From assembly GCF_036711975.1 (NCBI RefSeq), contig NC_091976.1:9114001-9178000 (forward strand): DNA of 64,000 bases. Direction: 5' to 3'. Positions 1-35,697 of this stretch are shown here, in pieces; positions within the stretch are counted from its first letter, which is position 1, and every line of letters starts with the position of its first letter. Source of the stretch: Onthophagus taurus. Taxonomy: Eukaryota > Arthropoda > Insecta > Coleoptera > Scarabaeidae. Position numbers and translations under genes: made by a program. The notes below the pieces were generated by a model. That model made no database searches, had not been told where the DNA came from, and worked only from the letters and a program-made list of their open reading frames with translations.

Positions 1-239
1 ATGGGGTTGATTAATTTAGGAATTTAATTGTTCAAATTTTAAAGAATTTTTTTTTTTGAGGATCAATTGGGAATAAAATAGGAATTCGGTTAACTTAGTT
101 AAAACTTTTTTTTAAGTAATATCAGAATAAAGAACAAAAATGGAAGGAGATTTTAGGGAAAAATATAATGTACCACTTTTTTTGGTAATATGAGTTTTTT
201 AAAGTTATAAAACGAAAACACGACAAAATTTAACTCTCT
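1..239. other. Left flank, no gene seen
   Basis: AT-rich sequence with short homopolymer runs. No reading frame or repeat could be supported here. It ends at the 6-bp target duplication of the Polinton. Confidence 0.6.
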
Positions 240-245
240 TTCGTC
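240..245. repeat. Target site duplication TTCGTC (left)
   Basis: TTCGTC stands directly before the left terminal inverted repeat and recurs directly after the right one at 13668-13673. A 6-bp duplication is the known signature of Polinton/Maverick integration. Confidence 0.9.
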
Positions 246-714
246 AGTAGTGTAAGAATGCCGGTTCTAGAGCGGAAGTTAATCCTGCCAATCCTGCGGT
301 GACGTCACGCCTCAATGTATTAGGTATAGGGGGGGATACCAACCAAAGTTTGGGGGAAAAAAAATTAGGTTGGTATTAAAAGTAACTAGAGATCTAGGGA
401 TTTTTAGAAAATTAAATAGAAAAATTTAAATACAATGGCGCCACCTATGATTGAGTGGTGTAAGTACTAGATTTAGGAATTTTTTATAAAATTAAACAGA
501 AAAATTTAAATATAATGACGCTAGCTATGATTGAGAATTGAACTGTAAATTAGCGTAACTTGAGCTGAAAAATTAAATGGTGGTGGTGGTGGGAATATAG
601 GATTAAAAATAAAAAAAAATCATTACATTTCAAATTAACAATAAATTATATTAGCATAATATATAAAAAAACCAATATATAATATAATCTGTGATTAACT
701 TGAAATGACTACAT

Positions 715-1062
715 TTAAGAAATAGATGCCGATGGAATTTCATCATTTGAACCAATATTCTTCTTCTTCTTCTTTATAAATTCAATTTTTTGCACAGTAC
801 ATGTCTTGTTAAGTTCAAGTTCTCCAAGATATACCAAACACATTTCACGTAGTTCAACAATTTCAGCATCGGAAATCACTTCAGCAATACGTTTAGGTAG
901 AAACACAATAAATCCAGCTTCCAGTTCAACAATTACCATAGGCCAAGCTCGGCTTGGAATACGTTTAGCTGCTACAATTGGATACGGTATATGTAAATGT
1001 AAATCACTCACTTTTTTCTTAGGTAAAAATTCACACTGTCCTAAACGATTTAGATGTTCCAT
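715..1062 (-). CDS. OB-like small DNA-binding-type protein, left TIR copy
   Basis: 115 residues, nearly identical to the product at 12852-13199 (three differences seen: I/T, M/T, A/S). The core pattern, a PYPIVAAKRI strand followed by VIVELEAGFIVFLPKR, is also seen in the gene at 1827-2117 (VLIELEDFKVYIPK). From memory, small proteins of this pattern recur in arthropod Polinton-like and related elements and have been regarded as OB-fold, single-strand-binding-like. That function is inference. The C-terminus is lysine-rich (FIKKKKKN). The ATG overlaps the end of a 47-codon frame read in another phase. The gene lies wholly inside the terminal repeat, so two doses are present. Confidence 0.7.
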   Translation of the reverse strand: MEHLNRLGQCEFLPKKKVSDLHLHIPYPIVAAKRIPSRAWPMVIVELEAGFIVFLPKRIAEVISDAEIVELREMCLVYLGELELNKTCTVQKIEFIKKKKKNIGSNDEIPSASIS

Positions 1063-1193
1063 CTTTTCAATAAGCGGTGTATAAACTTCAAGTGAACAGC
1101 TTGGAGTGTAAGTTCGGAATGAATAAATTTCGCACTAGGCGGTAGAGATAATGTAACCGCAAAAAAAAATAATGTGGTTAGACGCAATAACAT
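1050..1193 (-). CDS. Small signal-peptide-like protein, left TIR copy
   Basis: A 47-codon frame starting ATG with a basic N-terminus (MLLRLTTL), a hydrophobic FFFAVTLSL core and a PPSAKF segment like a signal peptidase site. It overlaps the start of the OB-like gene by a few bases. The right TIR copy has one extra Phe from a 3-base indel and stays open, a weak sign of coding constraint. No family is recognised. Confidence 0.35.
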   Translation of the reverse strand: MLLRLTTLFFFAVTLSLPPSAKFIHSELTLQAVHLKFIHRLLKRWNI

Positions 1194-1436
1194 CTCTCTA
1201 GATAAACAAATTTCCAATAACAACTGTTGATAAAATTAAAAAAAATAAAATTATCAAAAGGAAAATTCGAGAAACAATAGAAATTACTCACAGTATAAAA
1301 AATAAATCGATCCTAAGTGTTCCCAACACATCCCAATGGTTGGTAAACCATGTTCTCCACAATCTCAATATGATTGCGATGGGCAACATCCCGTAAAGCT
1401 CAAATACATGAATTCTTTTTTTAGTCTTAAATTCAC

Positions 1437-1826
1437 AACCTCGGCTGCTGAATCAAACAGGCTTGATGGCTGTTTATAACTCATCTTTTTATAATTTGAT
1501 GTTTATGTTCTGGTTTAGATTGAAGTAATTCTATAATGTCTTTTTCACCACATTTTATATTAATTTTCTATTTGTCCTATTTCCCGATGTTGTCATCCGA
1601 AGAAATTTATCTGTTTTTTTGTGGTAATTTGTTTTTCGTGGTATTTCGTTTGTTCGCCACTGTATTTTTTTGCAGATGTATTTCTCAGTTGTGATAATTG
1701 CGGTTTTTGTGGTTTTACTTTATTATGCACGTGTTATTTTTTTATTTTATTATCTATTTACTTAGAATAACATTTTAATCAGTTGTGTCCCACAGATTGA
1801 TTTCATCGGTTCTATATCGGTTAAAA
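1437..1826. other. Spacer between left TIR and first single-copy gene
   Basis: AT-rich sequence without a supported gene. It probably holds the promoter of the OB-like gene at 1827, but no clear TATA element is positioned there. Confidence 0.4.
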
Positions 1827-2117
1827 ATGGAAAATTTTAATCAAATTGGTGCGTCATTGAATAGTAAACTTGATTTACTTAACAATATATATGCAAGATC
1901 CAGTAAAACCTTGGTAAGAGTCTCCCGTTTGGAGTGTAATAGAGTATATCGTATAATAGGAATTGAGAGACATGTTAATTCGAGTAGTACATATCCCAAA
2001 GTTTTAATTGAATTGGAGGATTTTAAAGTCTATATACCTAAATGTTATGAAGATGAGATATTAAAGGATGATACGTTTACAATTTTAACATCTTCAATCT
2101 ATCGGATTGATCTTTAA
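1827..2117 (+). CDS. OB-like small protein, single-copy paralogue
   Basis: I chose the ATG at 1827 (MENFNQIG), giving 96 residues. An upstream in-frame ATG at 1785 adds only an unrelated-looking leader. The central stretch (CNRVYRIIGIERH, then VLIELEDFKVYIPKCYEDE) has the same layout as the TIR-encoded 115-residue protein: a strand after PY/VY, then V-I-V-E-L and F-V-Y/F-L/I-P-K. The C-terminal third recurs as a truncated copy at 12387-12478. Sequence 3' of this gene (about 2183-2275) resembles the inner part of the right TIR (about 12615-12710) in the same orientation. This points to a past duplication involving the terminus. Single-strand DNA binding is a plausible but unproven role. Confidence 0.65.
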   Translation: MENFNQIGASLNSKLDLLNNIYARSSKTLVRVSRLECNRVYRIIGIERHVNSSSTYPKVLIELEDFKVYIPKCYEDEILKDDTFTILTSSIYRIDL

Positions 2118-2182
2118 AGGTTCTACCTATCTAATGGATATTTTAAATTTTGTAAATTTAAATGAAGTTTAATTTTTTTTAT

Positions 2183-2275
2183 AATGTGAGTATTTCTATT
2201 GTTTCTCGAACTTTCCTTTCGATAATCTTTATTTTTTATCTTTTTATCTTTTACCAACAGTTGCTATGGAAAGTT
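2183..2275 (+). repeat. Direct partial copy of inner right-TIR sequence
   Basis: This stretch, GTGAGTATTTCTATTG through ACCAACAGTTG, aligns by eye with 12615-12710 in the same orientation. Both copies start with a splice-donor-like GTGAGT and end in CAACAG. Confidence 0.6.
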
Positions 2276-2383
2276 TGTTAACCACAAGCGGAAATGCGCG
2301 TGAAAAAACAACTATATTTTAAATAAAAAACAATGTATTAAATGAAAAAATTTATTTAAACCAATAAAATGTATATTTAATCT

Positions 2384-2895
2384 TTACAATAAATTTTCAT
2401 TAGAAATCCAACTGTTCTGAGACGAATCAAAACCTAACCATTTCACGTACAATCTATCCCCTTTCCTCCTTCTTATCACTTTTTCAACGAGATAAACGTC
2501 AGGTTGTTTAGATAAACTGAGCTCAAATTCATAAAATGCTCCTGAAATGGGTTGACCATTCATATCCTCCAACAAATATGTTACAGGTTTGTTATTTGAA
2601 CTTTAGCAATTTTAAACAATTCAGTAGTCCAATTTGGTAGGTATCCTTTATCGAAAACATGTTTATGTCTACTGATTCGTACCGTATCACCAACTTTAGA
2701 CTTTCATTTACCAGTAATTTTTACGAAATTGTAGACTGTACTGAGAAGCTGATTTTCAATAGATTTAGAATTTATTAAATTAGGAGCTAGGAGCTAGCTT
2801 TGTAGTCCTATGCTTTGAAGCGTTATAAATTTTAGCTACGTCATTCAAAAGATGTAACCATTTATGATTCCCGTAAAGACTAAAGTATTTATAGA
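2384..2895 (-). pseudogene. Polinton integrase, C-terminal relic with chromodomain
   Basis: The readable C-terminus at 2575-2384 contains a chromodomain (YLVEKVIRRRKGDRLYVKWL, then FDSSQNSWI). Upstream on the same strand, in shifted frames, are an SH3-like segment (KVGDTVRISRHKHVFDKGY, then PNWTTE) at about 2700-2600 and an end-of-catalytic-core segment (KYFSLYGNHKWLHLLNDVA) at about 2890-2840. This order is that of retrovirus-like integrases of arthropod Polintons. The DDE core and the N-terminal zinc-binding domain are absent. The gene stops where the 213-bp tandem repeats begin. Frameshifts and a stop make it inactive. Confidence 0.85.
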
Positions 2896-2900
2896 GCCTT

Positions 2901-3600
2901 CTGTTTTATCTGACCAACCGCTTTTATCGGCACCGATACTTTTTCGAACTGAAAAGCGGTTGGATGGGTAAAACAGATTGGTACAGATAAATTTTAACAG
3001 GCCGGTTTTAACCGATCTGTTTTATCTGACCAACCGCTTTTATCGGTTGTAACACCGATACTTTTTCAAACTGAAAAGCGGTTGGATGGGTAAAACAGAT
3101 TGGTTTCTGATCAAATTATACCGTTGACGGATGGAATTCTTATAGTTACTGGGGGACGTTAAGGATTGTCACAGGTTGTTATATAAACTGTTTTAACAGA
3201 TAAATTTTAACAGGCCGGTTTTAACCGATCTGTTTTATCTGACCAACCGCTTTTATCGGTTGTAACACCGATACTTTTTCAAACTGAAAAGCGGTTGGAT
3301 GGGTAAAACAGATTGGTTTCTGATCAAATTATACCGTTGACAGATGGAATTCTTATAGTTACTGGAGGACGTTAAGGATTGTCACAGGTTGTTATATAAA
3401 CTGTTTTAACAGATAAATATTAACAGGCCGGTTTTAACCGATCTGTTTTATCTGACCAACCGCTTTTATCGGTTGTAACACCGATACTTTTTCAAACTGA
3501 AAATCGGTTGGATGGGTAAAACAGACTGGTTTCTGATCAAATTATTCCGTTGGCGGATGGAATTCTTATAGTTACTGGGGACACTCTACGGACTGTGGAG
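2901..3600. repeat. Tandem array, 213-bp period, hairpin-rich
   Basis: The motif CTGTTTTATCTGACCAACCG starts at 2901, 3017, 3230 and 3443. The last three copies are spaced exactly 213 bp; the first has an internal deletion. Each unit holds an inverted repeat (CAACCGCTTTT ... AAAAGCGGTTG) with a smaller internal one (ATCGG ... CCGAT). The array replaces the integrase N-terminal half. No reading frame is supported. Confidence 0.9.
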
Positions 3601-3626
3601 GATATGGTTGGAACAAACCCCATTAA
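3586..3626 (-). repeat. Inverted fragment of the metalloproteinase gene
   Basis: About 41 bases here are the reverse complement, with two mismatches, of about 4690-4731 inside the metalloproteinase catalytic domain (core GTTTGTTCCAACCATATC on the plus strand of the gene). It lies at the end of the tandem array. Confidence 0.75.
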
Positions 3627-3739
3627 AACAAGGAACCATACATCTGAACATTTGTTTCAAGAGCAATATATAGCAGTAACAACCCCTTTAGAAAAAACAA
3701 ATTCGAGACTGCATGTATACATATAAACCATTGAGTGGT

Positions 3740-3895
3740 GAGGTGTTGGTAATCATAAACTAACAGGATATCCACATTGATAAAAAAATGTGGTCAGCCA
3801 CAGAGAAAAACAACTGTGCAGATGCAGGTGCAGGACGTTATAGACAAACAGGATGTCCACAATGATAAAATGTGGTTATCCGTGGAAAAAAACAA
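3740..3895. repeat. Two imperfect copies of a CCACATT/AATGTGG hairpin segment
   Basis: The phrase ACAGGATATCCACATTGAT (about 3763) returns as ACAGGATGTCCACAATGAT (about 3850). Both are followed by AATGTGGT and a run ending AAACAACT. The two copies are just upstream of the DIQG gene promoter region. Confidence 0.6.
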
Positions 3896-3906
3896 CTACC
3901 ATTGAC

Positions 3907-3915
3907 TATATATAT
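3907..3915 (+). promoter_or_regulatory. Possible TATA element of the DIQG gene
   Basis: TATATATGA lies about 35-45 bases before the ATG at 3951. Spacing fits a short 5' leader. Inference from sequence only. Confidence 0.35.
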
Positions 3916-3950
3916 GACGTCCATGCTATGCACACACATTAGTTACCATC

Positions 3951-4469
3951 ATGACATTCAGACGTACGGCAGTTGTAGATATTCAAGGTGTTCAAGTCGA
4001 TTCAGAATTTGAAGCCAGAGAAGTCACTCTCATAGATTTAGACACATCCCACACGTTACATCTACATCTTCAGTCAAGCAAACCATTCCGAGCGCTGAAC
4101 GAAAAGGACCAGAAGTCTTGTAGATATTTAGAACGGCATCATCATCGATTGGGTTTTAACGATGGCTGGATCAGGCAAGGTATGGGTTTGAAGCTGCTCG
4201 ATGATACCATTTCAAACTATGATCTTATCTATGTGAAGGGGAACCAGAAGGCACATTTTTTGAAAAATCGTCCATGCCATCCAAATCGATGTTGTAGGAA
4301 TTTAAAGATTATCGACCTATCGCTAGAAAAATGTAATGTAGCCGAAGAGATTAAATTAAATGTTTCGTTAGATGTGTGTTGGTGTCATAACGGGTTCCCA
4401 GCCGTATGTTCGCAAAACAACGCATTAATATTAAAAAATTATGTAAACCAATCGAAATTTATGCTGTAA
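3951..4469 (+). CDS. DIQG-type protein of arthropod PolB elements
   Basis: 172 residues, complete frame from ATG to TAA. It opens with AVVDIQGVQ, followed by an acidic KE/RE-type strand. A HHHRLGFNDGW segment lies near residues 64-74, then LIYVKGNQKA, then IIDLSLEKC near residue 122, and a Cys/His-rich tail. From memory, proteins with this DIQG / YVKG / IDL layout occur widely in insect genomes near protein-primed polymerase genes and may have an RNase H-like or exonuclease-like fold. That is recollection, not a search result. The frame is intact while the neighbouring genes are broken. AT-rich 3' sequence follows (AATAAATATA at about 4499). Confidence 0.65.
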   Translation: MTFRRTAVVDIQGVQVDSEFEAREVTLIDLDTSHTLHLHLQSSKPFRALNEKDQKSCRYLERHHHRLGFNDGWIRQGMGLKLLDDTISNYDLIYVKGNQKAHFLKNRPCHPNRCCRNLKIIDLSLEKCNVAEEIKLNVSLDVCWCHNGFPAVCSQNNALILKNYVNQSKFML

Positions 4470-5129
4470 ACCAATGAAAATGTATTGTACTATAAAAAAT
4501 AAATATATATATTTTGTAAACTATTGAACTTTCATTCATTCAGTCCTTAACATACAACAAGTTAAGATGTACCCTAAGCTGATAATGATACATTAAAGCT
4601 ACTGTTAAAACCCCGATGTGGTAATTTGGATGTTTATACAAATTTAAACTATAAACATATAACGCGTAAGTGGAACTTTACTAAAATTCAATGGGGTTTG
4701 TTCCAACCATATCATCTACAGTCCGTAGAGCTATTTAGAAAGGGGTTTAACGTTTGGTCTGAGCATATAAATTTACAATTTCAAAAAACTTATCGAGATA
4801 TTAACATTTTAATCGGGTTCCGAAGTGTGAATCATACACTTATCCAAAATCCTAGGATAAATTGCCCCGCTAAATTTGATTGTAAAGGAGGTGTGCTAGC
4901 TCACGCAGAGTATCCGAGTATACATAAAGTTAAAGTTGAAATTCATATAGACATAGACGAGAATTAGAATTTCACTAATAATAACGAAAATGAAGTCAAT
5001 TTATTACCTGTTATTATACATGAAATTGGTCACTCTTTAGGATTAGATCATAATAATCGAAATGATTCCGTAATGTATGCATATTATGGTGGAGTTGAAA
5101 CCTTCACTTGTTTATCACTTGATAAACCT

Positions 5130-5270
5130 AGTATCTCTACAACAACCTCAATTCCCACTACAAATAGAACTCAAACTTCGACTACAAAAAGAACAACAAC
5201 AACAAGAACAACAACAGTAAGGCCATCACCATCAACAACAACAACAATAAGGTCAACATCAGTCTCAACT
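5130..5270 (+). repeat. Thr-codon-rich low-complexity hinge
   Basis: A run of ACA, ACT and ACC codons encodes a Thr/Ser/Arg-rich linker between catalytic and hemopexin-like domains. Hinges at this position are normal for matrix metalloproteinases, though their length varies. Confidence 0.8.
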
Positions 5271-6551
5271 GTAAACGTCTCCCATATATGTGATGTGGAT
5301 GAAAAGTTCACAGCATTTTTAATTTACGATAAAATAGTCTACGTTTTCTTTAAGCAGTGGGTTTGGTTAATTGATCTAAAGACTAAAAAACCGATTCAAT
5401 CCGAAGCTGTAAACATTTTAGATTGGATACACCCCTTGAGAGGGGTTTTAGACAATAGCGACTATGACTATGTAGTGTCAGTAGATTCCAATGGCCTATT
5501 CACATTTATTATCAAAAATGAAATATATATAATTGAAATTAAGAGTTTAACTGTAAGGTATAAATATAGATTTTCTGAAACGGAATTAGGTTTAATTGAT
5601 GTAAGTAAAATTAGAGGTGTGGTTACCAGTAATTACGGTTTGACATACATCTTTTTCGATAAACATTACATCATCCACGTAGATGAGTACTTTTACAGAA
5701 GAAAAAGATTATAATGTCTGCAGATGAATTCTTTCCGGGAATTCCAAACAACTTCAGTGGTGTATATAAAACGTCTGATGGTTTATTAAATTTCTTTGTT
5801 GCGGATATAATTATCCGTTACAATGAATATTTAAAAGAGGTTGTGAGTAGTTCGGAAAAGAATCTATCTTTATTGGGTATATCTTGTCCCTATAAGTCTT
5901 TAATTGATCAACTCAAATATACAGTGCTAGCGTAAAGTAACCCCCCCCCTGTTTAACTTCTGAACAGATTGAGATATCAATATGAACAAAAAAACGTCAG
6001 TTTCTATATTTTATCAGCACAAATATTTTCTTATGGAAAATTTTGGTATCACTTTTAGTTTTTCCGGAAAATGGAACAGCTTTGTTTTTTTAAATGGAAT
6101 ACCCAGTATATTATGGTATCTTTCGAAAGAATAAAACAATACGAATTCAACGATACCTCACAATCAAATATCGTTTTATTAGTTTTTTACATAAAAATTA
6201 AACAAAATGCGGAATTTCGCCGGAAAAACCAACGTATCTTCGTTGACTACCTGTCGAGATACAATGGGCCAGATAAATGGTGGACGGTCAGTTAAAGGTC
6301 GGTCTACGCTCGGATTAAGCAGGGTTAAAATCGGCAATTCTTTTAGAATGTTTTTATGAAACAATCAATACAAGAAAAGGATAAAAAGAAAGTTCTTTTT
6401 AAAACTTCTAAGAAAAAATTGTCATAACAACAATTTTAAAGTTTGTAGGTACTTTGAAATTTTGTATTTAAGGCAGCATGCAAATATTTTCCTTCATTTC
6501 TATCTTTGAATTCTACCCGACCAAGTATAACCAAAGAAAGGCGAGATCAAA

Positions 6552-6869
6552 ATGGCTAGAAGGAGTTTAGAGCACAATATCGAAGCAATTTTAATATTCG
6601 CTCGTGCTGACAGAAATCTACATGAAACAGGGCGACAATTTAAGGAACGATTTCCTGAACATCCAATTAGTCGAAAATATTTAAGAGAGCTTGTGAATAA
6701 GTTTTTGGAAACTGGAAGCGTCGAAGACCGCAAAAGAACTGGTCGTCAGATATTAACAGAAGTATTTAATGTGCCCATGATGTCGTCTGCTGCTATCGCA
6801 TCAACGTGTGATGTGTTAAATATTTCCGCGTCGTTGTTGGAAGACGTGGAAATACTTAAAGAAGAATAA
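6552..6869 (+). pseudogene. Transposase N-terminal helix-turn-helix fragment
   Basis: 105 codons beginning MARRSLEHNIEAILIFARAD and continuing with RQFKERFPEHPISRKYLREL and FLETGSVEDRKRTGR. This is the N-terminal HTH pattern (DUF4817-type, from memory) of mariner-like transposases common in insects. The frame runs into unrelated sequence, and the DDE core that should follow is missing. Confidence 0.7.
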
Positions 6870-6884
6870 ATATCATCCATTTTA

Positions 6885-7161
6885 ATCCACATTATGCGCC
6901 AATGGTACGAAATTATCTTGATAAAAATTTTAATGGACAACAAGATCACCAGATCTGACACATTTAGATTTCTTTTTATGGGGTTATTTAAAATTCAAGG
7001 TATATGAAATTCCGTTGGGTAGTATTGAGGATTTAAAACAAAAAATTATTGACGTCTGCCAAAATATTGATCACATGTTAAGCCGTGTGAGAGAGGAAAC
7101 ACTACAAAGATGGTACCACTGCCTAGAAATTCAAGGTAATCATATCGAACAATTTACTTAA
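6885..7161 (+). pseudogene. Transposase C-terminal fragment
   Basis: In shifted frames one can read SPDLTHLDFFLWGYLKFKVY, then EDLKQKIIDVCQNID and a tail ending IQGNHIEQFT before TAA at 7159-7161. The SPDLTxLDFFLWG motif precedes the last catalytic acid region in this transposase group. It has stops and a frameshift relative to the N-terminal fragment. Confidence 0.7.
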
Positions 7162-7782
7162 TATTTGATTCTTAATAAATAAAAAAATCTTTTATTATTC
7201 AATAACAACACTACGTTACCTATACTAGCAAAATCTTTAATAAGAAAATTTCATTTCTTATATTGACTTTTTTTCTTTATAAATATTTTTTGATAAAATA
7301 TGATTAATTCATAAATTTAATATACTTCCAAACAACTTTTATTTCATTTCTAAAAAAAATAAGTAATTGAACTTGCAATTTTAAATCCGTCTTAGCTCGA
7401 GCGTATACCGACCGTCCACCATTTACCTGGCCGATTGCATTTCGACAGGTAGTCGACGAAGGTACGTTGGTTTTTCCGGCAAAATTCCGCATTTTGTTTA
7501 ATTTTTATGCGAAAAACTAATAAACCGATATTTGGTTGTGAGGTACCGTTAGATTCGTATTGTTTTCATCTTTCGGAAGATACCATAATATACTGGGTGT
7601 TCCATTTAAAAAAACAAAGTTGATCTATTTTCCGGAAAAACTAAAAGTGATGGCAAAATTTTCCATAAGAAAATATTTGTGCTGATAAAATATAGAAACT
7701 GACGTTTTTTTGTTCATATTGATATCTCAATCTGTTCAGAAGTTAAACAGGGGGGGGGGTTACTTTACGCTAGCACTGTATA

Positions 7783-8170
7783 TCGTCTACAATAATTTCA
7801 TCAAATATCACAATTCCAGCGGAAAATTAAATATGTTATGTATCAAATGTGATTTAATCTATGTAACGACAAACTTATTTGGGTTCTATGTAAATAAAAA
7901 TTTTTCCACTTGTTTATACATTTGTGGTTTTTTGTTTTTTGAAGTAGAATTAATTATCTTGTCCAACTGTCATCCGTTTGTGGTTTCTTGTTTATGTTTG
8001 AAACTACTATCTGTTTTTCACCGCAATTATCTACAACTTGTTTTATTATTTAAAGACAATAGATATATAAAGGATGCTCTGGTTACCGAAAAGTTAATAG
8101 CATTTGTTCGTGATCGCGTAGACACCGTGTTATTTTTTATTTCCGAAAGTGAAAAGAAAAAACTCTAAAC
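7783..8170. other. Intergenic stretch before the polymerase
   Basis: AT-rich. An open frame to 8168 runs through here from within the mariner inverted repeat. It is hydrophobic and Leu/Phe-rich, with no family pattern, and is not supported as a gene. Confidence 0.4.
8064..8072 (+). promoter_or_regulatory. Possible TATA element of the polymerase gene
   Basis: TATATAAAG lies about 100 bases before the polymerase ATG at 8171. Plausible core promoter by sequence only. Confidence 0.35.
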
Positions 8171-11100
8171 ATGTTTATTTGTGAGTTCTGTCAAGTGTCT
8201 TTTACGGCGAAACATAATCTTGACAGGCATATGCGAGGTAAACATGGTCAAACTAATTTCGATTGTACCGTGTGTGGAGGAAAATTTTCAAGACGAGATA
8301 ACTTGAACGTACATCTGAAACGATCTCATGGGTTATCTATGAAACGTCAAGCACCACCACCACCACCACCATTACCATCAACCATCGAACATCGATCAAA
8401 TCTAGAGATGGAAGTTCCCGGTACATCTACTAAACATCAATCAAATTTGGAGATGGTAGTACCAACACCATTAACATCCCCACCACCACCACCACCACCA
8501 CTAGGTAATAAACGTCATCGATATTCAGCACGTCTAGAGTCCATAATCGAAAACGATGGAAGGGTATGTCAAGTTTGTGGCGATTTACTACCATCATTTA
8601 TCTCGCTTGAATGTCATCTTAGAACTGAGCATGTTGAAATAATCGATGATATTGTTAGAAAATTTAAGTCTTGCTATAAAAATAGGGTAGTTTGCTATAG
8701 AATTGATGGAGCTCAACCTGATGATGATATACCGTCATATCTATTGAAATGTTGTGACACAGTTAATCGACTGATTGAACAACATCTCAATAGGAATGGT
8801 TCGGTAAAAGCTCAGATTGAGTTATTAGCAAATTATATTAAGTCCGGATTTGATGATGATGACGGGAATGAGGAAATTATTATGTCGGAGAAAAATTTTA
8901 ATACAAAATTTAGAGTTATCACTGCCGCCACTGTGTTGAATGAGGTTTATGATGAGATGACTCGGGATGTTCTAAATCAAAGCGAAGAGTTTCAGGAGCG
9001 TGGGTCAGGGTGGGCTTTCCACTCTATATCTCACCTGCCCCTGAACATCAATAAATTTGAGCCCATACCCGGGTCATCATATATTCGTTTACCTCATGAT
9101 ATCGAAAAGAAAAAGGCATGCATCAATATTAAGAATTATGAAGACGATGCATGTCTAGCGTGGTGTTTGATGGCAGCTCTTTATCCCGCAAATCATAGTC
9201 AAGATCGGACTTCAAGCTACCCTCACTATAGTGAAACCCTTAATTTACAAGGTATTAGATTCCCCATTACTTTTAAAGACATTGTTAAAGTGGAAAAGTT
9301 GAATAATTTAAGCATTAATGTATATGAGTTAGTTAGGAATTCGAATAAGTATACGGTGGAAGGACCAATTTATTTTACCAAACAAAGACGTGAAATTCAT
9401 ATAAATTTACTCTATTTATATAAAACCGGCGGGAAAGGTCATTTTGTATTAATTAAGAACCTATCCAGGCTTATATCACGTTAGTTTTCACACCATGAGC
9501 ATTCTATACACTTTTGCGATGGATGTTTAACCCGATTTCCATCTGCTGAAAAATTAATTACACGTCAAAATCACGATTGTAATCATATAAAAACAATTGT
9601 TCCCACGATAAATTTAAAATCAAAACCTAATTATTTTGGCTTACACACTCCCGAAAATATTTTATCATTTAATAACTATAAATTCACACAGATGGCCCCG
9701 TTCGTTATATATGCAGACTTCGAATCGATTCTACAACCAATCGATTTTTGTGAGCCCAATTCATCTAAATCTTTTACCGAAAAAGTTGAGATGCATCAAC
9801 CCTATAGTTTCGCTTATTATATCGTTTCCACGATTGATAGTAGTTTTAATAAATTTGAAACGTATACAGGACTTGATGCATCTCACGTTTTTATCACAAA
9901 ATTAATCGATGATGTTAAATTTATCTATAATAAATACTTGAAAACCGTAAAACCAATGATACCTTTAACAACCGATGAGCAACGCAATTTCGATTCAGCT
10001 GAAAATTGTTATATTTGTCAAAATCCTTTCACATCTGACCAGGTTAAGGTACGCGATCATTGTCATATTGGTGGTAAATACCGGGGACCCGCCCATGCAA
10101 ATTGTAATCTAAATTTCAAACTTCCAAATTCTATTCCAATATTCTTTCATAATTTTAGCGGTTATGATTGCCATTTATTTATTAAAGAAATGGCTGATGC
10201 TGATGAATATGGACTTGATGTATTGCCGAACAATAAAGAAAAATATATCAGTTTCAGTAAAAGAGTGTTTGTCGATAAATTAATCAATGAAGATAAAACT
10301 GTTGAAAATATTTTTTTAAAATTAAGATTTGTTGATTCGTTTAGATTTATGGCATCTTCATTAGACTCTTTAGCCGGTAACCTCGAAATAAATGACTTTA
10401 TCAATATACGTAAATTCTTTCCACACCCGGAACATTTTAAATTGTTAACGAAAAAGGGTGTATTTCCATACAATTATATAGCCTCTTTCGACAAACTAAA
10501 TGATACATCACTACCATCTAAAAGCATGTTTTACAACAAATTAAATTTAGAAGACATAAGCGATGAGCAATATTCGCACGCTCAATGTGTGTGGAAAGAA
10601 TTTAATTGTCAAAATTTGAAACAATATTCCGACTTGTATTTAAAGACAGATGTTCTTTTATTGACTGATGTATTTGAAAAATTCAGGCAAGTTTGTTTTA
10701 AAACTTACGATTTAGATCCCGCGCATTATTATACGGCACCGGGGCTATCTTGGGATGCCATGTTAAAATTCACCAAAATTAAATTAGAATTATTGACGGA
10801 TATAGATCAAGTTCATTTTATTAAGAAAGGTATCCGTGGAGGTATTTCTCAATGCTCCCTACGGTACGCTAAAGCTAATAATAAATATATGGATAATTAT
10901 AACCCCAATTTCCCATCATCGCATTTAATGTATTGGGACGCGAATAATTTGTATGGATGGGCGATGTCGCAATATTTACCGGTTTCCAGTTTCAAGTGGT
11001 TAAATGATACCCAAATTCTAAATTTTAATTTTAATAATATATCAGATACTTCAGATTACGGTTACATTTTAGATGTAGATATCGAATACCCCGAGTATTT

Positions 11101-12205
11101 GCATGATACGCATAATGATTTACCTTTTTTATGTGAAAACATTTTACCACCTAACGGTAGATGTGAAAGCGATAAAAGATTGATTCCAAATTTATTTAAT
11201 AAAACAAATTATGTTGTGCATTATAGAAATTTAAAGCAGGCCGTTGCTAACGGTCTTAAAGTTTCTAAAATTAATAGAGTTTTATCGTTCAGACAGTCTA
11301 CCTGGTTGAAATCTTACATCGATAAGAATACAGCATTACGCCAATCCGCTAATAATTCTTTTGAAAAAGATTTTTTCAAGTTAATGAATAATGCGGTTTT
11401 TGGTAAAACCATGAAAAATGTAGATAAGCGAGTCGATGTAAGATTAGTGACCAGTTGGGATGATGTTCATACTAGCGAAATCTCCGGTCGTCCTCGTTTA
11501 GGAGCTCGGAGTTTAATTGCGAAATTAAATTTTAAAAGCATAAGCATATTCACAGAAACGTTTTCGGCAATTCAAATGGATCGTCTCCATGTCGTTTACG
11601 ATAAACCTCTATATGTTGGTTTTACGGTTTTAGAATTGTCTAAATTGTTAATGTATAATTTTTATTATGATTTCTTAAAACCAAAGTACGGTGAATCTAT
11701 TCGCTTATATTACATGGATACCGATAGCTTCACCGTACTAATTGATTCCGATGATGTTTATAGAGACGTGAAATTGAATTTAGATAAATTTGACACATCG
11801 AACTACAGTCCTGATAATCAGTTTGACATACCGTTACATAATAAAGCTGTTTTGGGTAAAATGAAAGACGAGAATTGCGGAAACATAATGGTTGAATTTA
11901 TCGGTTTGAGATCTAAAGTGTATGCGAATAGGGTCGCTGATGGTCGGGTTACAAAGAAATCTAAAGGTGTTAAGAAAGCTATTGTTAAACATAACATATC
12001 TTTTCAAAATTATTTAGATTGTTTAAATTCAAAATCGGTTTTATTTAAAAAACAAACGTTATTTAGAAGTTTCAATCATAACATATTTACAGCATTACAA
12101 AATAAATTGGTTCTATCACCAAATGACTCCAAGCGATATATTTGTAATAATGGAATTAATACATTCGCTTGGGGTCATTATAGTATTAATGACGATAGTA
12201 CATAG
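8171..12205 (+). pseudogene. Protein-primed family B DNA polymerase, broken by one TAG
   Basis: One phase is open from the ATG at 8171 to the TAG at 12203-12205 except for a single TAG at 9482-9484. The N-terminal part (437 residues) has C2H2 fingers at about residues 2-25 and 30-55, Pro-rich linkers, a third finger near 131-155, and a terminal-protein-like region ending in LIKNLSRLI. The polymerase part reads YADFES (Exo I), a treble-clef/HNH-like DHCHIGGKYRGPAHANCNLN, NFSGYDCHLF (Exo II), YSDLYLKTD (Exo III), DANNLYGWAM (motif A, about 10937), NNAVFGKTMKN (motif B) and YMDTDS (motif C, about 11710). All catalytic motifs are present from Exo I to motif C. It would copy the element by protein priming at the terminal repeats. 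This copy is presumed inactive unless the TAG is recoded. Confidence 0.9.
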
Positions 12206-12386
12206 TTTAATTTTAAGTTAATTTATTCGTAGTTATTGTAATTTATTGAAAAGTTCTCGATGGTTTAATTGTTTATTCGCTTTATTTTCTGTTTACATCA
12301 CACTTTAGCTATGGTTCAAATCTCATTGGTAAGTATGTTAATTTACACCATCGAGATTTTTTTTATTGTTTTAATTCAATTGCAGG
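12206..12386. other. 3' spacer after the polymerase
   Basis: Short AT-rich stretch. No gene of its own; it leads into a truncated copy of the OB-like gene. Confidence 0.5.
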
Positions 12387-12478
12387 ATTTTAAAGTCTAT
12401 ATACCTAAACGTTATGAAAATGAGATTTTAAAGGACGATACGTTTGCAATTTTAAAATCTTCAACCAATTCTTTGTGA
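12387..12478 (+). pseudogene. Truncated copy of the OB-like gene at 1827
   Basis: Encodes DFKVYIPKRYENEILKDDTF and a short end, matching the C-terminal third of the product of 1827-2117 (DFKVYIPKCYEDEILKDDTF). The 5' two thirds are missing. The stop codon lies in the first bases of the right TIR. A CAG just before the preserved part resembles a splice acceptor, and a GTAAGT occurs at 12330, but both probably arose by chance. Confidence 0.75.
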
Positions 12479-12717
12479 ATTTAAAACTAGAAAAAGAATT
12501 CATGTATTTGAGCTTTACGGGATGTTGCCCATCGAAATCATATTGAGATCGTGGAGAACATGGTTTACCAACCATTGGGATGTGTTGGGAACACTTAGGA
12601 TCGATTTATTTTTTATACTGTGAGTAATTTCTATTGTTTCTCGAATTTTCCTTTTGATAATTTTATTTTTTTTAATTTTATCAACAGTTGTTATTGGAAA
12701 TTTGTTTATCTAGAGAG

Positions 12718-12864
12718 ATGTTATTGCGTCTAACCACATTATTTTTTTTTTTTGCGGTTACATTATCTCTACCGCCTGGTGCGAAATTTATTCATTCCGA
12801 ACTTACACTCCAAACTGTTCACTTGAAGTTTATACACCGCTTATTGAAAACATGGAACATCTAA
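12718..12864 (+). CDS. Small signal-peptide-like protein, right TIR copy
   Basis: 48 codons: MLLRLTTL, a four-Phe run, AVTLSLPPGAKF and a short tail. Compared with the left copy it has one more Phe and a few substitutions (S/G, A/T, R/T). It is preceded by an intron-like stretch (GTGAGT at 12618, CAACAG ending near 12687). It overlaps the ATG of the OB-like gene at 12852. Confidence 0.35.
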   Translation: MLLRLTTLFFFFAVTLSLPPGAKFIHSELTLQTVHLKFIHRLLKTWNI

Positions 12865-13199
12865 ATCGTTTAGGACAGTGTGAATTTTTACCTAAGAAAA
12901 AAGTGAGTGATTTACATTTACATACACCGTATCCAATTGTAGCAGCTAAACGTATTCCAAGCCGAGCTTGGCCTACGGTAATTGTTGAACTGGAAGCTGG
13001 ATTTATTGTGTTTCTACCTAAACGTATTTCTGAAGTGATTTCCGATGCTGAAATTGTTGAACTACGTGAAATGTGTTTGGTATATCTTGGAGAACTTGAA
13101 CTTAACAAGACATGTACTGTGCAAAAGATTGAATTTATAAAGAAGAAGAAGAAGAATATTGGTTCAAATGATGAAATTCCATCGGCATCTATTTCTTAA
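12852..13199 (+). CDS. OB-like small DNA-binding-type protein, right TIR copy
   Basis: 115 residues, complete frame, almost the same as the product of 715-1062 on the other strand. The few differences are conservative or near-conservative. Both copies are intact while larger single-copy genes are broken. Function inferred as in the left copy. Confidence 0.7.
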   Translation: MEHLNRLGQCEFLPKKKVSDLHLHTPYPIVAAKRIPSRAWPTVIVELEAGFIVFLPKRISEVISDAEIVELREMCLVYLGELELNKTCTVQKIEFIKKKKKNIGSNDEIPSASIS

Positions 13200-13667
13200 A
13201 TGTAGTCATTTCAAGTTAATCACAGATTATATTATATATTGGTTTTTTATATATTATGCTAATATAATTTATTGTTAATTTGAAATGTAATGATTTTTTT
13301 TTATTTTTAATCCTATATTCCCACCACCACCACCATTTAATTTTTCAGCTCAAGTTACGCTAATTTACAGTTCAATTCTCAATCATAGCTAGCGTCATTA
13401 TATTTAAATTTTTCTGTTTAATTTTATAAAAAATTCCTAAATCTAGTACTTACACCACTCAATCATAGGGGGCGCCATTATATTTAAATTTTTCTATTTA
13501 ATTTTCTAAAAATCCCTAGATCTCTAGTTACTTTTAATACCAACCTAATTTTTTTTCCCCCAAACTTTGGTTGGTATCCCCCCCTATACCTAATACATTG
13601 AGGCGTGACGTCACCGCAGGATTGGCAGGATTAACTTCCGCTCTAGAACCGGCATTCTTACACTACT

Positions 13668-13673
13668 TTCGTC
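13668..13673. repeat. Target site duplication TTCGTC (right)
   Basis: Matches 240-245 exactly and abuts the right terminal repeat. Confidence 0.9.
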
Positions 13674-15419
13674 ATTCAGCGGTATAACGTGTAACATCGT
13701 GAAAAAAATTAGTCGTCGACATTTTGAAAATTTGAGTTTTGAGAAGTTTAGTCGAGATTATTAATCCATAATTTTTGGGAGAATCACGCATGTTATAGTA
13801 TTAAATCATAATTGATCGTTTGTGATTTTGGTAACAGAAGTTTATTCTGGATTTAGTTGTACTGCAAAGAAAAAATTGTTTGATAGCCTCAGAACATCCA
13901 CGAGGTACGTTAAAATTAATTTTCTTATCCTAATTTTCAGTCATTCATTCATTCATACTTTAGATTTCATTCAAAATCTTTCATGCTATTGAAAAAAAAA
14001 AAAAAAAAAAAAATTATAAAAAATAAAAAAAAAAAACTTAAAACTATCTTAAAACTATTGGATTTTTTTTCTTAATTAATTTTAATTGGTTAGGCTTTTG
14101 GAGGGAGCATTTTAAGAAAATTTTCTTCATCCACCTCGTGGGGAATAAAATCACGAGGTCATTCAGTCACCTAAAAATCCCCAAAATAAGTATCCTGAAG
14201 GAAGAAGGCGTTATCAGAAATATCCTACCTTAAGTTCTTCCTGGATGGTCATCTGGAGATTCTTTATGGTAATCTTATTCAAGGAAAAGGTCAGACGTTA
14301 AGTTTTGTTATAAAACATTCAAGAAACAATTTACTATTTTGGAAATTTAATTTAAATTATCTTTGTTTCATTTTTTTTTATTATTATTAAATTCATTAAT
14401 CTCTTGATATTCTTTTGTAAAATTTTAATTGGAATTTTTTTTTCTTTTCGATTCATAAAAATTCGTTCTAAATTAAATTTAATTTTATCAGACGAATACG
14501 GAAATTTATATATTTTTTTTTGCTTTGACTTTCTGATTTGGAATAATTTAATTTTCATATTCACATTTTCCAATTTCAATCATCATTTTTTTTTATATTT
14601 AATTTTAATTTTCATTTATTATTTTGGTTTGTGTATTACAAACTTTTATATATATATATATATATTTTTTTTTCCTCCAATATATTTCGTATTATTTTGT
14701 TTGCTATTCTTGAATTTCAATTATTTACTGTTGTGTTTGTCTCATCCTGTATACCTGAAAATTTTGAATTTTTAATATCTTCTTTTCGCCATTATTGTGT
14801 TATCGTGGTTTATTCAATGGCGTGGCGCTGTATAAATAAATCACCCCTTCTCCATTGAGCTGGTCGAGGTACCGCGATAAAATTCACTTTTCAAAATTAA
14901 AGTTAGGAAAATTGGGTGGGATAAGTTGAGTATAGGCATAGTATATATTTTTGTGATACAGCGGCAACATACTCTAAACATTCTTATCTTTTTTATTGTT
15001 GATGGACTACTGCACATCGGGACAATACAATAGGTTCCCTTGGAGGTCATAATTCTACAACTATTACTACCTAAAAAAACTAAACAACTAATTGATTAAA
15101 TGAACTAAATCTATTAATTAAATATCTATAATACAAATAAAAAATACAAAAAATGTACAAATAATGTAATAATAATGTTGGTAGTAGATACCAAAAGTTT
15201 AAAACTACTCAACTAAAGTAAAAACCAATATAAGAAATTACTTATTATTAAAAAAATACTACCAACTAATTAAAACAAATATTAATAATTATTAAAAATC
15301 AGCACAGGCAAAACACTACTTGAGGACAAAGTTAACACTTGAGCCCACAACAGCTCACAAATTTATCTTTTCAAGAGTCCAAGAAGGGTGAGTAGAGTAG
15401 GGGGATTCTTTGGAAGTCA
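13674..15419. other. AT-rich spacer, no gene supported
   Basis: Contains an A-rich run at 13990-14035, a T-rich region at 14350-14760 whose open frames are low-complexity artefacts, and a short (TA)n at about 14648. The stretch 14880-15400 is A/T-rich without a frame. Parts near the right end may be remains of the Gypsy element that follows. Confidence 0.5.
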
Positions 15420-22829: not shown

Positions 22830-23166
22830 TGTCACTAAGTACGAATTGAGCGCCGTTCGATCTGCTTGGCCATTGGTCGTCAACCCTACCTACGGATCGG
22901 ACGGTCGCCAACCAACCACAACGCCCGGTTGATAGGGTTTTACCCAAGGGCGCCTATTTAAGGCGGCCGGGTTTCCATCAGCGGTCAATTCCAACCGAAC
23001 TCCGAAGCGACAACAAGCCAGCACTTCAACCGCCAATTCAAAGACGACCCCTTTCGTCTTAAAAAAACCTTTGAGGGTTTTTTTTGTACATACTTTTGTA
23101 TATAAATTATTTCGTTTTATTCAACAACTGTTGTTTCTTCTTCGGCGCAATCCATCCCCCGTAACA
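22830..23166 (+). repeat. 5' LTR of the Gypsy element
   Basis: Starts TGTCACTAAG and ends CCCCCGTAACA. Nearly identical to 27302-27639. It contains TATTTAAGGC at about 22955 as a possible TATA element. Confidence 0.95.
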
Positions 23167-23168
23167 AT

Positions 23169-23186
23169 TGGCGCCCAACGTGGGGC
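23169..23186 (+). promoter_or_regulatory. Primer binding site (Gypsy)
   Basis: TGGCGCCCAACGTGGGGC lies two bases after the 5' LTR, the normal place for the tRNA primer site that starts minus-strand synthesis. Confidence 0.85.
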
Positions 23187-23192
23187 CCGATA

Positions 23193-24116
23193 ATGCCAAA
23201 AGGACCAACAACGAGAAGCCGTTCATTGTCGACACCGCCATATCCGACGAAGGAAGATTTGGCAAGCTCTTCAGAAGAAGAGGGGCCCACCCAACCGATT
23301 AAAGAAGAGAAGAAAGGAAAAGAATCCCAAACGCAGAAGATGGGGAAGACCGCTGAAGAACCGAAACAAGACAGTGCGACCGTTCAGACACAGGTTTGCG
23401 CCCTGTCAAAGTTATTGGCCGAACATGTCTGCATCTCAAAAGCCGAGCCCCCGTGCTTCACCGGCGATTCCTTGGAGGATCCTGCAGAATTCATCAAGGT
23501 AATAAAGACATATTTCACTGACACCGGCATTCCATCAGCGGAACAAACAAAGAAAGCGACCAGTTTTCTTCGAGAAGATGCCGCTGTGTGGTGGAGTGCA
23601 TTCGATGATTTGGAGATGTCCTTCGCGGAATTTCACCAAGCGCTGTTGGAAAGGTTCAACAGTCCGCAAATATTGGCACAAGTCAACGGCCAATATTTCA
23701 GCCGCCATCAGCAGACTGATGAATCGGTGCAGGCGTTTTTGAAACGCAAACACCTGCAAGCCCGTCGTCTGCACCGAAAACCGGACGACGACATTGGAAT
23801 GATGGTTGCCCTGCTGCTACCTCAGCTACAGCTGCACCTGTCCCCCACGCCGGCCAACATACACGAGTTGCGACACAAAGCAATTCGCACGGAGGCGCTT
23901 CTGAAGAAGTCGGGCCTCCTCAAACAACCCACAACACCATCTCCAAAGGGTAAGAAGACTCCTGAAGAGGACAACGAGGACCCCAAGAAGAAGGTGCCCC
24001 GATGCTGGTACTGCCCCGGGTACCATTGGAACCGTGACTGTCCCCTACAAAGCAGCACCGGTTCGGGAAACGAAACGGCGGCCGTTCGCCCAGGACAACC
24101 CGGACGGCCGCAGTAA
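23193..24116 (+). CDS. gag: Gag polyprotein of the Gypsy element
   Basis: 307 residues. The N-terminal 60 are Ser/Glu/Lys-rich. A capsid-like core includes PPCFTGDSLEDPAEFIKVIK and AAVWWSAFDDL, then a basic stretch, and a zinc knuckle CWYCPGYHWNRDC near residue 271 with spacing C-x2-C-x3-H-x4-C, one residue shorter than the usual x4 before His. It forms the intracellular particle and binds the element RNA. The stop TAA is at 24114-24116, just past the frameshift signal that fuses Gag to Pol. Confidence 0.9.
   Translation: MPKGPTTRSRSLSTPPYPTKEDLASSSEEEGPTQPIKEEKKGKESQTQKMGKTAEEPKQDSATVQTQVCALSKLLAEHVCISKAEPPCFTGDSLEDPAEFIKVIKTYFTDTGIPSAEQTKKATSFLREDAAVWWSAFDDLEMSFAEFHQALLERFNSPQILAQVNGQYFSRHQQTDESVQAFLKRKHLQARRLHRKPDDDIGMMVALLLPQLQLHLSPTPANIHELRHKAIRTEALLKKSGLLKQPTTPSPKGKKTPEEDNEDPKKKVPRCWYCPGYHWNRDCPLQSSTGSGNETAAVRPGQPGRPQ
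24065..24111 (+). promoter_or_regulatory. -1 ribosomal frameshift signal between gag and pol
   Basis: The heptamer GGGAAAC is in phase G GGA AAC in the gag frame. After a 6-base spacer comes an 11-bp stem (GCGGCCGTTCG at 24078-24088 with CGGACGGCCGC at 24101-24111, one G-U pair) and a 12-base loop. Pol lies in the -1 frame and is open across this point. Confidence 0.8.
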
Positions 24117-27100
24117 TCTCCACATTGGAGGAACCTGGTTGCTCCAGCCGCTCGACTGTAATAATCGAGGTAGCAGGAAGGCGCAGCCTAGCTCTCCTGG
24201 ATTCCGGCTCGACAAGCAACTTCGTCAGCTCAAGAGCCGTCGCGTCTTATAAACCGCTGGGAGACACCTACGCCACCCAAGCGGACCCGAATGCCCAGCT
24301 GCCCATCCTCGGGAAGGCCGAAATCCAGTTCACCATCGGTGGACTCCAGTGCACCCAGCAGTTTTTGGTGGTTCCCCGACTCAGCACCCCGTTTGTTTTT
24401 GGGGATCCCTGGTTCCGCGACCAAGGGGTGATCCTCGATTTCCAACGAGGCTGTTTTCACTTCGGGAAAGAGAAGAGGACCACGATGTACTTCCGACGGG
24501 GCAGCCCCACTGCGCCACTGCCCGCTCTGGACGTCAGTACTATCCGTCACCAATTTCCGGACAAACACAAAGAGGCCTTTCTAACGACGCTTCGTGCCTT
24601 CCCCGACGTGTTTACCGACTCCCATAAGAGTACCACAGGGGCAACTCAGCACAAACTGGAGCTCACCGAAGGAGCAAGGCCGTTTCGACTACCGCCATAC
24701 CGCTGCTCCTATACCAAAAAGGAATTTATCGCCCGTGAAGTAGAGAAGATGTTGGCGGAAGGTGTCATTGAAGCCAGTCGTTCGCCGTATTCATCTCCGA
24801 TCGTACTGGTGGAGAAGAAAGATGGGGCCAAGAGGTTTTGCGTCGACTACCGTCGATTAAACCAGCAAACGGTGGACGAGTCCTCAGCTTTGCCAATCAT
24901 CCACGAGACGCTGCGGGACCTCAGCCAGGCTACCGTTTTTTCGAGCCTCGACCTGCGGTCCGGATATTGGCAAATCCCAATGGAGAAGGGGTCTCGACCC
25001 TTAACCGCCTTCACAACTCCCGACGGTGCCACCTACCAGTTTCGCGTCATGCCTTTCGGATTGAAGAATGCCCCGGCGACGTTCCAGAAGTTGATGACGC
25101 AAGAAGTGCTCCCTGGATACCTCCGGAAATTCGCCCTGGTGTACCTGGATGATGTCATCGTCTACAGCAACTCCTGGGAAGAACACCTTAGACACTTACA
25201 CCTGGTGTTTGAACGACTCCGGTTACACAACCTCCGGTTATCACCGGAAAAATGCCACTTGGGGGCAACAACCATCGACTACCTGGGTCACCGGATTACA
25301 CCAGGAGGAGTGGAGCCCTTACCGAACCACGTCAACTCCCTCTGCGACGCATCGAGACCGTCCAACAAGAAGCAGCTGCGATCCTTCTTGGGACTGTGTA
25401 ACTGGCTACGCGGGTTTATCCCACGCTGCGCCGAAGTGTTAACCCCGCTGACAGATCTCTTGCGGGGCCAGAAACAGTTTAAGTGGACAGCTGAAGCCGA
25501 GAACGCCTTTCTCGAGATTAAACAGCTACTGAGCCGCCCACTGCAACTTAGACGCCCGGACTTCACTCAACCTTTCGTGCTACAGACCGATGCCAGCGGG
25601 AAGGGAATTGCCGCGGTCCTCTACCAAGAACCGGAAAGGAAGATCATCGCATTTGCCAGCGCCAAGTTGTCTCCCACTGAGCAGCGTTACCATGCTAACG
25701 AACAGGAATGCTTGGCAGTCGTCTGGGCGATGCGATTTTTCCGACCGTACCTGGAGGACAGAAGATTCACCCTGCGCACCGACAGTAGAGCATTGTTATG
25801 GCTTGACACCATGAAGGACCGGAATGCCAAGTTAACCCGGTGGGCGCTCCTTCTTCAGGAATATAAATTTGACGTACAACACGTCCCGGGGGAACAGAAC
25901 GAACTCCCGGACTTTCTCTCGCGCCAACCCGGGCATGAGCCAACGACCCCTGCGGGTCACATAGCTGACGTCGACCGGATGTTTCTTCCACCATCCGCCG
26001 AACAAGAACCAAAAAACGTCCGACCCCACATTGCATGTGTCGAATTCCCTGGGCTAGCAGACGACTTAAAAGACAGTCAACGACGAAATCCCCACAGCCA
26101 AAACCTGATTCGTACCCTGGACGGAATCAACGAGGCGGGTCCCGCAAACCCGGCGGAAGCTAGAGTCGCCGCCCAGTATTTAGTGCATGATGGGCTTTTG
26201 TGGAGACGACATCCCGATGGTAACCGATTGATCGTGCCACAGGACATGCACGACCAGGTGTTGCACGCCTACCATGACGCGTCCACCGCAGGCCATCCCG
26301 GAGCTGAGGAAACCACGAGGGTCATCCTGAGGAAATACTGGTGGCTCGGCGTAGAGGAAGACGTGGCCAGACACGTCCGGGATTGCTGGGCCTGCTCATC
26401 GCTCAAGCGGGGACCCCTACAGGAACGGGCTCCATTACGACCACGAGCGCCCACACAACCATGGGAAGTTTTGGCAGTAGATCTCATGGGCCCATACGTG
26501 AAAACACGAGATAACAACAGGTTTGTGTTCGTTGTCACCGACCTGTTCAGTCGATGGGTGGAGGCGTTTCCGGCCGCTACCAGCAGCGCTCCGAAAATCA
26601 TAAATATCCTGGAGAGCGAGGTGTTTCCCCGGTATGGTTATCCAAGGGCCATTTTATCCGACAATGGGCCTCAGTTTACCAGCGCCAACTGGGACTCCGC
26701 GCTGAGACGTTGGGGGTGCCACCACTGGACGACGCCGATATACCACCCTCAGGCCAATCCTGCGGAGAGGAGGATTCAAGAAATAAAGAAATGCATACGG
26801 ATCCAACTCCAGGGCATAAATCCAACGACCTGGGATCGACACATCAATCGGGCTCTATTCAACGTTCGGTCACGGCGCAACGCGGCGACAAGAGAAACCC
26901 CCGCCGCCCTGCTGTTGGGATACGAGTTACCGCGACCTGGGGAATGGTTTCTTGAGGGCCCCCAAGATGGTCAACAGCCAGCGGCAGGACGGGCCGAGAG
27001 AAGAAGACGAGCGCACAGGAACGAGCATCGATACCGCCAGCGATACGCTGGGGCTGTACCACCACCCAGGCGGTTCCTGCCAAGGCAGCTCCTAATGGAG

Positions 27101-27292
27101 CGGGCTCATGTAGCGACGCCGTTTGGTCCTCGTTGGATAGGACCCCATATGGTTATAGAGGAGGCCGGACCTACAACGTACTGGATCCGCAGACACCAGA
27201 CTGCAGAGCCCAGCAAAGTCCACATCAACGACCTACGTCTGGCTCCTCCACCACATCGACACCCACCTGCGCAGCCCGAACCAGCGCCTTGA
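24066..27292 (+). CDS. pol: Pol polyprotein of the Gypsy element
   Basis: The frame is -1 to gag and continuous. The stretch from 24125 alone gives 1055 residues with no ATG needed, consistent with expression by frameshift. Domains, numbered from 24125: aspartic protease LALLDSGSTSNF (about 25-36), RT with FCVDYRRLNQQTV and LVYLDDVIVYSN (about 336-347), RNase H with LQTDASGKGIAAVL (about 485), and integrase with a zinc-binding segment (GHPGAEETTR ... CWACSSLK, about 722-760). The integrase core has LAVDLMGPY and LSDNGPQFTS (about 842) and then HPQANPAERR. All catalytic motifs look intact. The C-terminus is Pro-rich; no chromodomain is seen. Confidence 0.95.
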
Positions 27293-27301
27293 GGGAGGGG
27301 G
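27291..27301 (+). promoter_or_regulatory. Polypurine tract (Gypsy)
   Basis: GAGGGAGGGGG directly before the 3' LTR. It primes plus-strand synthesis. Confidence 0.85.
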
Positions 27302-35526: not shown

Positions 35527-35697
35527 TGCCCCCCGCCTTGAAAGGACTACCTTTCAAAAAAAAAAAAATTAGTGAGTATATGGGAGGGGGGAGCGCTAAA
35601 GAAAACATATTATAACAAATTATTTGATTGTCTATATCTAATAGACAATCACCTAAGGTAACAATAACAAAAAAAGTAAATAATATCAAAATTAATA

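Follow-up and report, generated by a model that had tools for sequence, protein, structure and literature searches.

A decayed metalloproteinase gene in a beetle Polinton and its full-length relatives in other Polintons of the same genome

Does a matrix metalloproteinase gene that lies inside a Polinton belong to the element, and what might the element use it for? The question is raised by a 64,000-nucleotide stretch of the genome of the dung beetle Onthophagus taurus (C11:9114001-9178000, hereafter the window), in which a Polinton at 246-13667 holds a metalloproteinase gene between the DIQG gene and the polymerase gene (8171-12205 in all), an arrangement correctly described in an earlier sequence-only reading. 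Comparison with the whole 290.8-Mb assembly identifies the window gene as a decayed copy of a gene shared by several Polinton (adintovirus-type) families, whose enzyme would probably be secreted as a zymogen and cut extracellular matrix.

Searched with Pfam, the genome yielded 63 metalloproteinase matches (63/63 candidates scored), which merged into 56 loci and were compared with 54 scored polymerase matches from 668 candidates and with 106 DIQG matches, retained from 150 after the 44 weakest were dropped (150 of 351 candidates scored). At 45 of the 56 metalloproteinase loci a same-strand DIQG match precedes the enzyme gene by at most 2.5 kb, and 27 of these also have a scored polymerase at most 10 kb downstream; the remaining 11 have neither DIQG nor a scored polymerase, and no locus has a polymerase without DIQG. 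Of the 54 polymerases, 26 are preceded on their own strand by a metalloproteinase at a distance of 2.7-4.6 kb, compared with a mean of 0.27 and a maximum of 5 in 1000 rotations. Grouped by polymerase identity, the gene accompanies 9/10 polymerases of 97-100% (the window included), 3/11 of 84-85%, 7/8 of 79-80%, 7/7 of 77% and 0/18 of 72-73%. The tenth copy of the 97-100% group has a metalloproteinase that abuts the polymerase and is counted among the DIQG-linked loci only, and the scored polymerase list is itself a lower bound: L036 (polymerase 72%) has the gene and is absent from the 54.

Contexts of 9 kb were taken for the first 20 of the 63 match rows, and 18 of them present the order DIQG, metalloproteinase, polymerase; the exceptions are L034, which is the host gene, and L038. 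The same gene at the same place in many other copies argues for an element gene and against a chance insertion, and these comparisons show the metalloproteinase to be a stable part of the elements, placed between DIQG, which it directly follows, and the polymerase. The sequence-only reading had taken it for part of the element, and this is borne out in many related elements, where the gene holds the same position and is often intact. In L048, L049 and L052 the window terminal repeat recurs on the right-hand side of the polymerase (97.5-98.5%). A metalloproteinase lies downstream of 46 of the 106 DIQG matches, and thus DIQG is not always paired with the enzyme. Upstream of polymerases that lack the gene, the L054 stretch has one open reading frame (ORF) of at least 90 amino acids (aa) and L055 has structural genes. 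In some enzyme-free families DIQG has the opposite orientation and precedes the polymerase by about 5-9 kb; at L038, DIQG and the metalloproteinase gene are followed, where the polymerase would be expected, by a reversed window-family element, which is perhaps nested. Viral contigs gave no co-location (0/25), L001 being Polinton-type without a metalloproteinase and 24 metalloproteinase contigs being without a Polinton polymerase, and further viral-contig scans gave no match.

Full-length frames of 542-555 aa, with a hydrophobic start, PRCG and a zinc site, are present in 14 of the 20 contexts (signal-like starts were judged by eye), and L036, L038, L039, L048 and L050 are broken or shortened. 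The full-length layout is a single exon encoding a hydrophobic N-terminus, a propeptide with cysteine switch, a zinc catalytic domain, a Thr-rich hinge and a hemopexin-like propeller. As the sequence-only reading had supposed of a secreted enzyme, the intact copies resemble secreted zymogens in their signal-like start, cysteine switch and zinc site. The codons of 11 of the 14 frames were compared by simple counting, with no branch test. Between families, synonymous divergence (dS) of the metalloproteinase is 1.0-1.26 and the ratio of nonsynonymous to synonymous divergence (dN/dS) is 0.27-0.37, compared with 0.12-0.19 for polymerase pairs; within the window family, dN/dS is 0.16-0.43 for the gene and 0.24-0.40 for the polymerase. 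On these counts the metalloproteinase has stayed protein-coding while diverging. Identity to the window is 86% for the polymerase and 45% for the enzyme in L035, 76% and, in two halves, 46% and 67% in L042, and 72% and, similarly, 43% and 56% in L036. Polymerase and metalloproteinase rank the families (L035-L037 and L039-L047 versus the window) differently, which hints at module exchange.

The window copy itself is dead, a pseudogene (Table 1). Intact P0123 of O. taurus (535 aa) is 96-98% identical to the four window pieces compared, and no significant counterpart of its residues 1-56, which make up most of the propeptide, was found in the window. The lesions comprise a 5' deletion, an in-frame stop, a short internal deletion, a frame change and a transposon insert; broken in frame, stripped of most of its propeptide and split by a transposon, this copy is unable to make an enzyme. 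The span 4578..7795 that the sequence-only reading assigned to the gene does hold a metalloproteinase gene, but it also contains the transposon, and the pseudogene state had been overlooked. The motifs had been read correctly: PRCG, HEIGHSLGLDH, the Met-turn, the Thr-rich hinge and a hemopexin-like region are recognizable, with the matrixin zinc site HExxHxxGxxH and Met-turn in the window pieces, and Pfam Peptidase_M10 matches pieces 1 and 2 separately, both above the curated cut-off and therefore far above chance. The cysteine switch survives in the window with the remaining propeptide gone, whereas the full-length relatives have a full propeptide. Hemopexin family PF00045 has no match in the window pieces, and the hemopexin-like domain is assigned by similarity to P0001 and P0197 and from the fold model of an intact relative. 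The metalloproteinase pieces had no match in PHROGs.

Table 1. Features of the window Polinton, with positions in the window
Feature	Position	Strand	Basis or remark
Left target duplication TTCGTC (6 bp)	240..245	.	Read from sequence
Left terminal inverted repeat, first letters AGTAGT	246..1438	.	Repeat comparison and sequence
115-aa ORF of unassigned role within left repeat	715..1062	-	ORF list
Integrase remnant: residues 146-314 only, chromodomain kept, catalytic core gone	2387..2902	-	Pfam and homology
DIQG gene, 172 aa	3951..4469	+	Constant upstream neighbour of the metalloproteinase
Metalloproteinase gene, broken, entire span	4567..7830	+	Pfam, homology to P0123
Piece 1: cysteine switch PRCG (KPRCG) and start of catalytic domain	4578..4964	+	Pfam M10 1e-9; 97% to P0123
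Piece 2: HEIGHSLGLDH, Met-turn SVMYAY, Thr-rich hinge, start of hemopexin-like domain	4968..5711	+	Pfam M10 1.9e-11; 97-98% to P0123 outside hinge
Piece 3, different frame: more of hemopexin-like domain	5696..5920	+	96% to P0123; no Pfam match
DNA transposon insert, TA on each side, DUF4817 ORF, inverted ends	5922..7778	.	1.86 kb
Final metalloproteinase codons past transposon	7780..7830	+	By eye against end of P0123
Polymerase gene, N-terminal part bearing C2H2 fingers	8171..9484	+	ORF, Pfam, homology
Polinton-type DNA polymerase B, 837 aa	9692..12205	+	99% to O. taurus P0003
Right terminal inverted repeat, last letters ACTACT	12473..13667	.	Repeat comparison and sequence
115-aa ORF within right repeat	12852..13199	+	47% identity to start of polymerase gene model P0007
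Right target duplication TTCGTC (6 bp)	13668..13673	.	Read from sequence

A structure model of P0123 from a 22-row alignment (mean pLDDT 74.9, pTM 0.53) has predicted propeptide helices, a catalytic part and the repeated strands of a propeller, and among solved structures it matches full-length human proMMP-1 best (E 1e-27). The pro-plus-catalytic part of the model lies within about 3-4 A of proMMP-10 and proMMP-9.

Within a comparison set of 121 listed proteins, the nearest relatives outside O. taurus are P0197, a 'collagenase' of Ladona dragonfly adintovirus, and P0241, a 'collagenase 3-like' protein of the ant Temnothorax nylanderi. The catalytic half gives 4e-35 and 7e-27 for these two versus 2e-24 for the next of the listed proteins, a slim margin for P0241, and the hemopexin half gives 2e-20 and 6e-19 versus 2e-8. 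A longer Cys-bearing insert before LAHA was found by eye in only P0123, P0124, P0197 and P0241 of the 121, and is found also in L035, L037, L042, L049 and L052. In a tree of 41 rows built without the insert columns, P0197 and P0241 cluster with five element proteins (support 100/98), and the beetle Mmp1-type gene sits among insect Mmp1; long branches had been flagged in earlier trees. P0197 shares with P0123 the matrixin and hemopexin domains, the insert and the lack of an RxKR-like stretch, although overall identity is about 31%, and P0241 shares the insert and the tree group but has a long branch and a Lys in place of the catalytic Glu. Insect Mmp1 and Mmp2 have propeptide, switch, catalytic domain, hinge and hemopexin domain in the same order, but fall in a separate tree group and have a short insert region. 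Kinship with the adintovirus gene is supported by several lines that agree. Grouping with the adintovirus and ant proteins, apart from the beetle Mmp1-type gene, makes a recent capture from O. taurus unlikely; of the earlier suggestion of host capture, the animal type of the gene stands, and a recent origin from this beetle fits the tree poorly.

The window element resembles the vertebrate Mavericks/Polintons, for which the portion of PMC8097293 consulted describes inverted repeats, 6-bp duplications, (AGT)2...(ACT)2 ends and a polymerase. Its terminal inverted repeats are 98-100% complementary in three pieces, and it has the same 6-bp duplications, end motifs and polymerase, but the window family is without capsid, ATPase and integrase core and has DIQG, which gave no Pfam match, and the metalloproteinase. 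The polymerase gene is divided over two frames and is 37% identical to the polymerase of L001; PF03175 is present in its relatives, and its type is putatively assigned by homology. No match to an FtsK-type ATPase or a capsid protein was found within window positions 1-14000, and the RVE integrase typical of Polintons is represented by residues 146-314 only, which makes the window copy a deletion derivative, a non-autonomous Polinton. An intact integrase (rve 2.9e-13) is present in the related element L055. At 3584-3627 (minus strand), an inverted 44-nt fragment of the metalloproteinase gene, 93% identical to 4687-4730, edges three 213-bp tandem repeats (2983-3621), and together these occupy the expected site of the integrase core. 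L055 also encodes, at 2487-3332, a phospholipase A2-like domain protein (PF08398, 6.7e-12) beside its ATPase and integrase genes. Elsewhere in the window are two long terminal repeat (LTR) retrotransposons, one at 22830-27557 with repeats (22830-23085/27302-27557) that are 99% alike and long open frames, and the other at 35238-41335 with 291-bp repeats that are 100% alike and enclose a 1693-aa ORF.

The window family comprises 13 loci with DIQG 96-100% identical. In the other families with the gene, a double-jelly-roll capsid gene lies directly upstream of DIQG in 14/14 contexts (Pfam 2.8e-59 for that of L042) and 28/32 loci have an ATPase gene no more than 8 kb away on the opposite strand; in the window family, a capsid gene was found in 0/5 contexts and an upstream ATPase match at 1/13 loci within 8 kb and 2/13 within 10 kb. 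The same truncated integrase remnant is shared by the window, L049, L051, L052 and L053, suggesting that the truncation predates the family's spread; no integrase remnant was found in the L048 stretch. The metalloproteinase has been kept in the window family although capsid and ATPase genes were not found and the integrase is only a remnant. With this gene content the family would depend on relatives for movement, and would have to borrow an integrase and, should packaging occur, a capsid as well. A tentative extension, which we hold to be rather doubtful, is that the family is a satellite that had shed capsid, ATPase and integrase core by the time it spread to about a dozen places, kept polymerase, DIQG and metalloproteinase, and is moved or packaged by capsid-bearing relatives with the same two-gene module, the enzyme being a shared good outside the cell. 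If so, the extracellular enzyme would serve helper and satellite alike.

The proposed role of the enzyme follows the predicted layout. It would be secreted as an inactive zymogen, kept latent by the cysteine switch, and would be activated outside the cell by propeptide removal, through another protease or the enzyme itself. The host proteins P0126, P0127 and P0154 have a basic RxKR-like stretch after the switch, whereas the element rows are without it, suggesting activation without furin, by another protease or by self-cleavage. The active enzyme would then cut basal lamina or other extracellular matrix and so ease the passage of particles or infected cells across the basal lamina; use in spreading through tissue, as earlier proposed, is conceivable. 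Metalloproteinases of granuloviruses and other large insect viruses have a proposed matrix role, and those of granuloviruses are probably the closest functional parallel. The basal lamina is treated as a barrier to insect viruses in the section of PMC11865517 consulted.

Several observations weigh against this account. Of the 54 scored polymerases, 28 have no metalloproteinase upstream. The zinc site is HEIGH in 13 of the 14 full-length frames, but Lys replaces the catalytic Glu (HKIGH) in the otherwise full-length L040, as it does in the ant protein. Between families, dN/dS of the metalloproteinase is above that of the polymerase, and L035 differs from L037/L040 by 2 synonymous and 12-14 nonsynonymous changes, too few to decide. 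Alternative tree placements are not rejected by approximately unbiased (AU) tests: neither grouping the element proteins with Mmp2 (p 0.267) nor joining them to the host gene, whether together with Mmp1 (0.117) or by itself (0.097), is excluded; an earlier test of P0123 with Mmp1 gave p 0.041. The whole-chain rmsd of the P0123 model to proMMP-1 is 22.9, indicating that the domains are arranged differently.

An element gene could also serve another purpose: its enzyme might cleave signalling or immune proteins of the host in the hemolymph, or assist entry or exit at the cell surface. Matrix metalloproteinases have many substrates outside the matrix, a breadth that fits such a purpose, and a host-side target suits a gene that diverges faster than the polymerase; the full domain set, hemopexin included, fits a matrix role at least equally well, and nothing found contradicts the hemolymph or cell-surface purpose, which is considered unlikely. 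That the gene is a functionless passenger copied along with the elements is far less credible. The window copy is one of many broken ones, differences within families are few, and the window family, having lost capsid genes, could be losing others; however, full-length frames persist in most contexts, the between-family dN/dS of the gene holds over dS above 1, and a relative is present in a dragonfly adintovirus.

Least credible, to the point of being negligible, is the chance insertion of a beetle metalloproteinase gene into the window copy alone. The genome does have separate, host-like loci without DIQG or polymerase: 6 of the 11 unlinked loci consist of two or three matches each, as expected for genes with introns, one of the 11, on C15, is the beetle Mmp1-type gene, and three on C11 may be relics. 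The beetle Mmp1-type gene, however, is not in one open frame, its catalytic domain being interrupted by a break that looks like an intron, and it groups with insect Mmp1, whereas the element gene holds its position in nearly all close copies of the window polymerase, abuts the polymerase in the tenth, and recurs at the same position in other families. Chance insertion was ruled out by the gene order in the contexts and by the polymerase counts against rotation.

The sequence-only reading knew of no metalloproteinase as a Polinton gene, but 'collagenase [Ladona dragonfly adintovirus]' was already on record, and with that database label the gene is of an already known kind. No description of a metalloproteinase in Polintons or adintoviruses was found in the literature searched; the portions of PMC11071296 and PMC8363768 consulted do not name one in such elements, and in the consulted part of one paper that surfaced for the term, it refers to poxviruses. 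As far as these searches reach, two things are new: many Polintons of a single beetle share a DIQG-metalloproteinase module, and the module persists in a family in which no capsid gene was found.

Since 45 of the 56 metalloproteinase loci adjoin DIQG, insect genes annotated, for instance, as 'matrix metalloproteinase-16-like' can belong to elements, and such labels call for caution. An open question about Polintons is whether they ever leave the cell to infect other animals. A secreted protease of matrix type in several, mostly capsid-bearing families would be hard to explain for a purely intranuclear self-copier, and the predicted secreted metalloproteinase offers a handle on testing an extracellular phase of Polintons.

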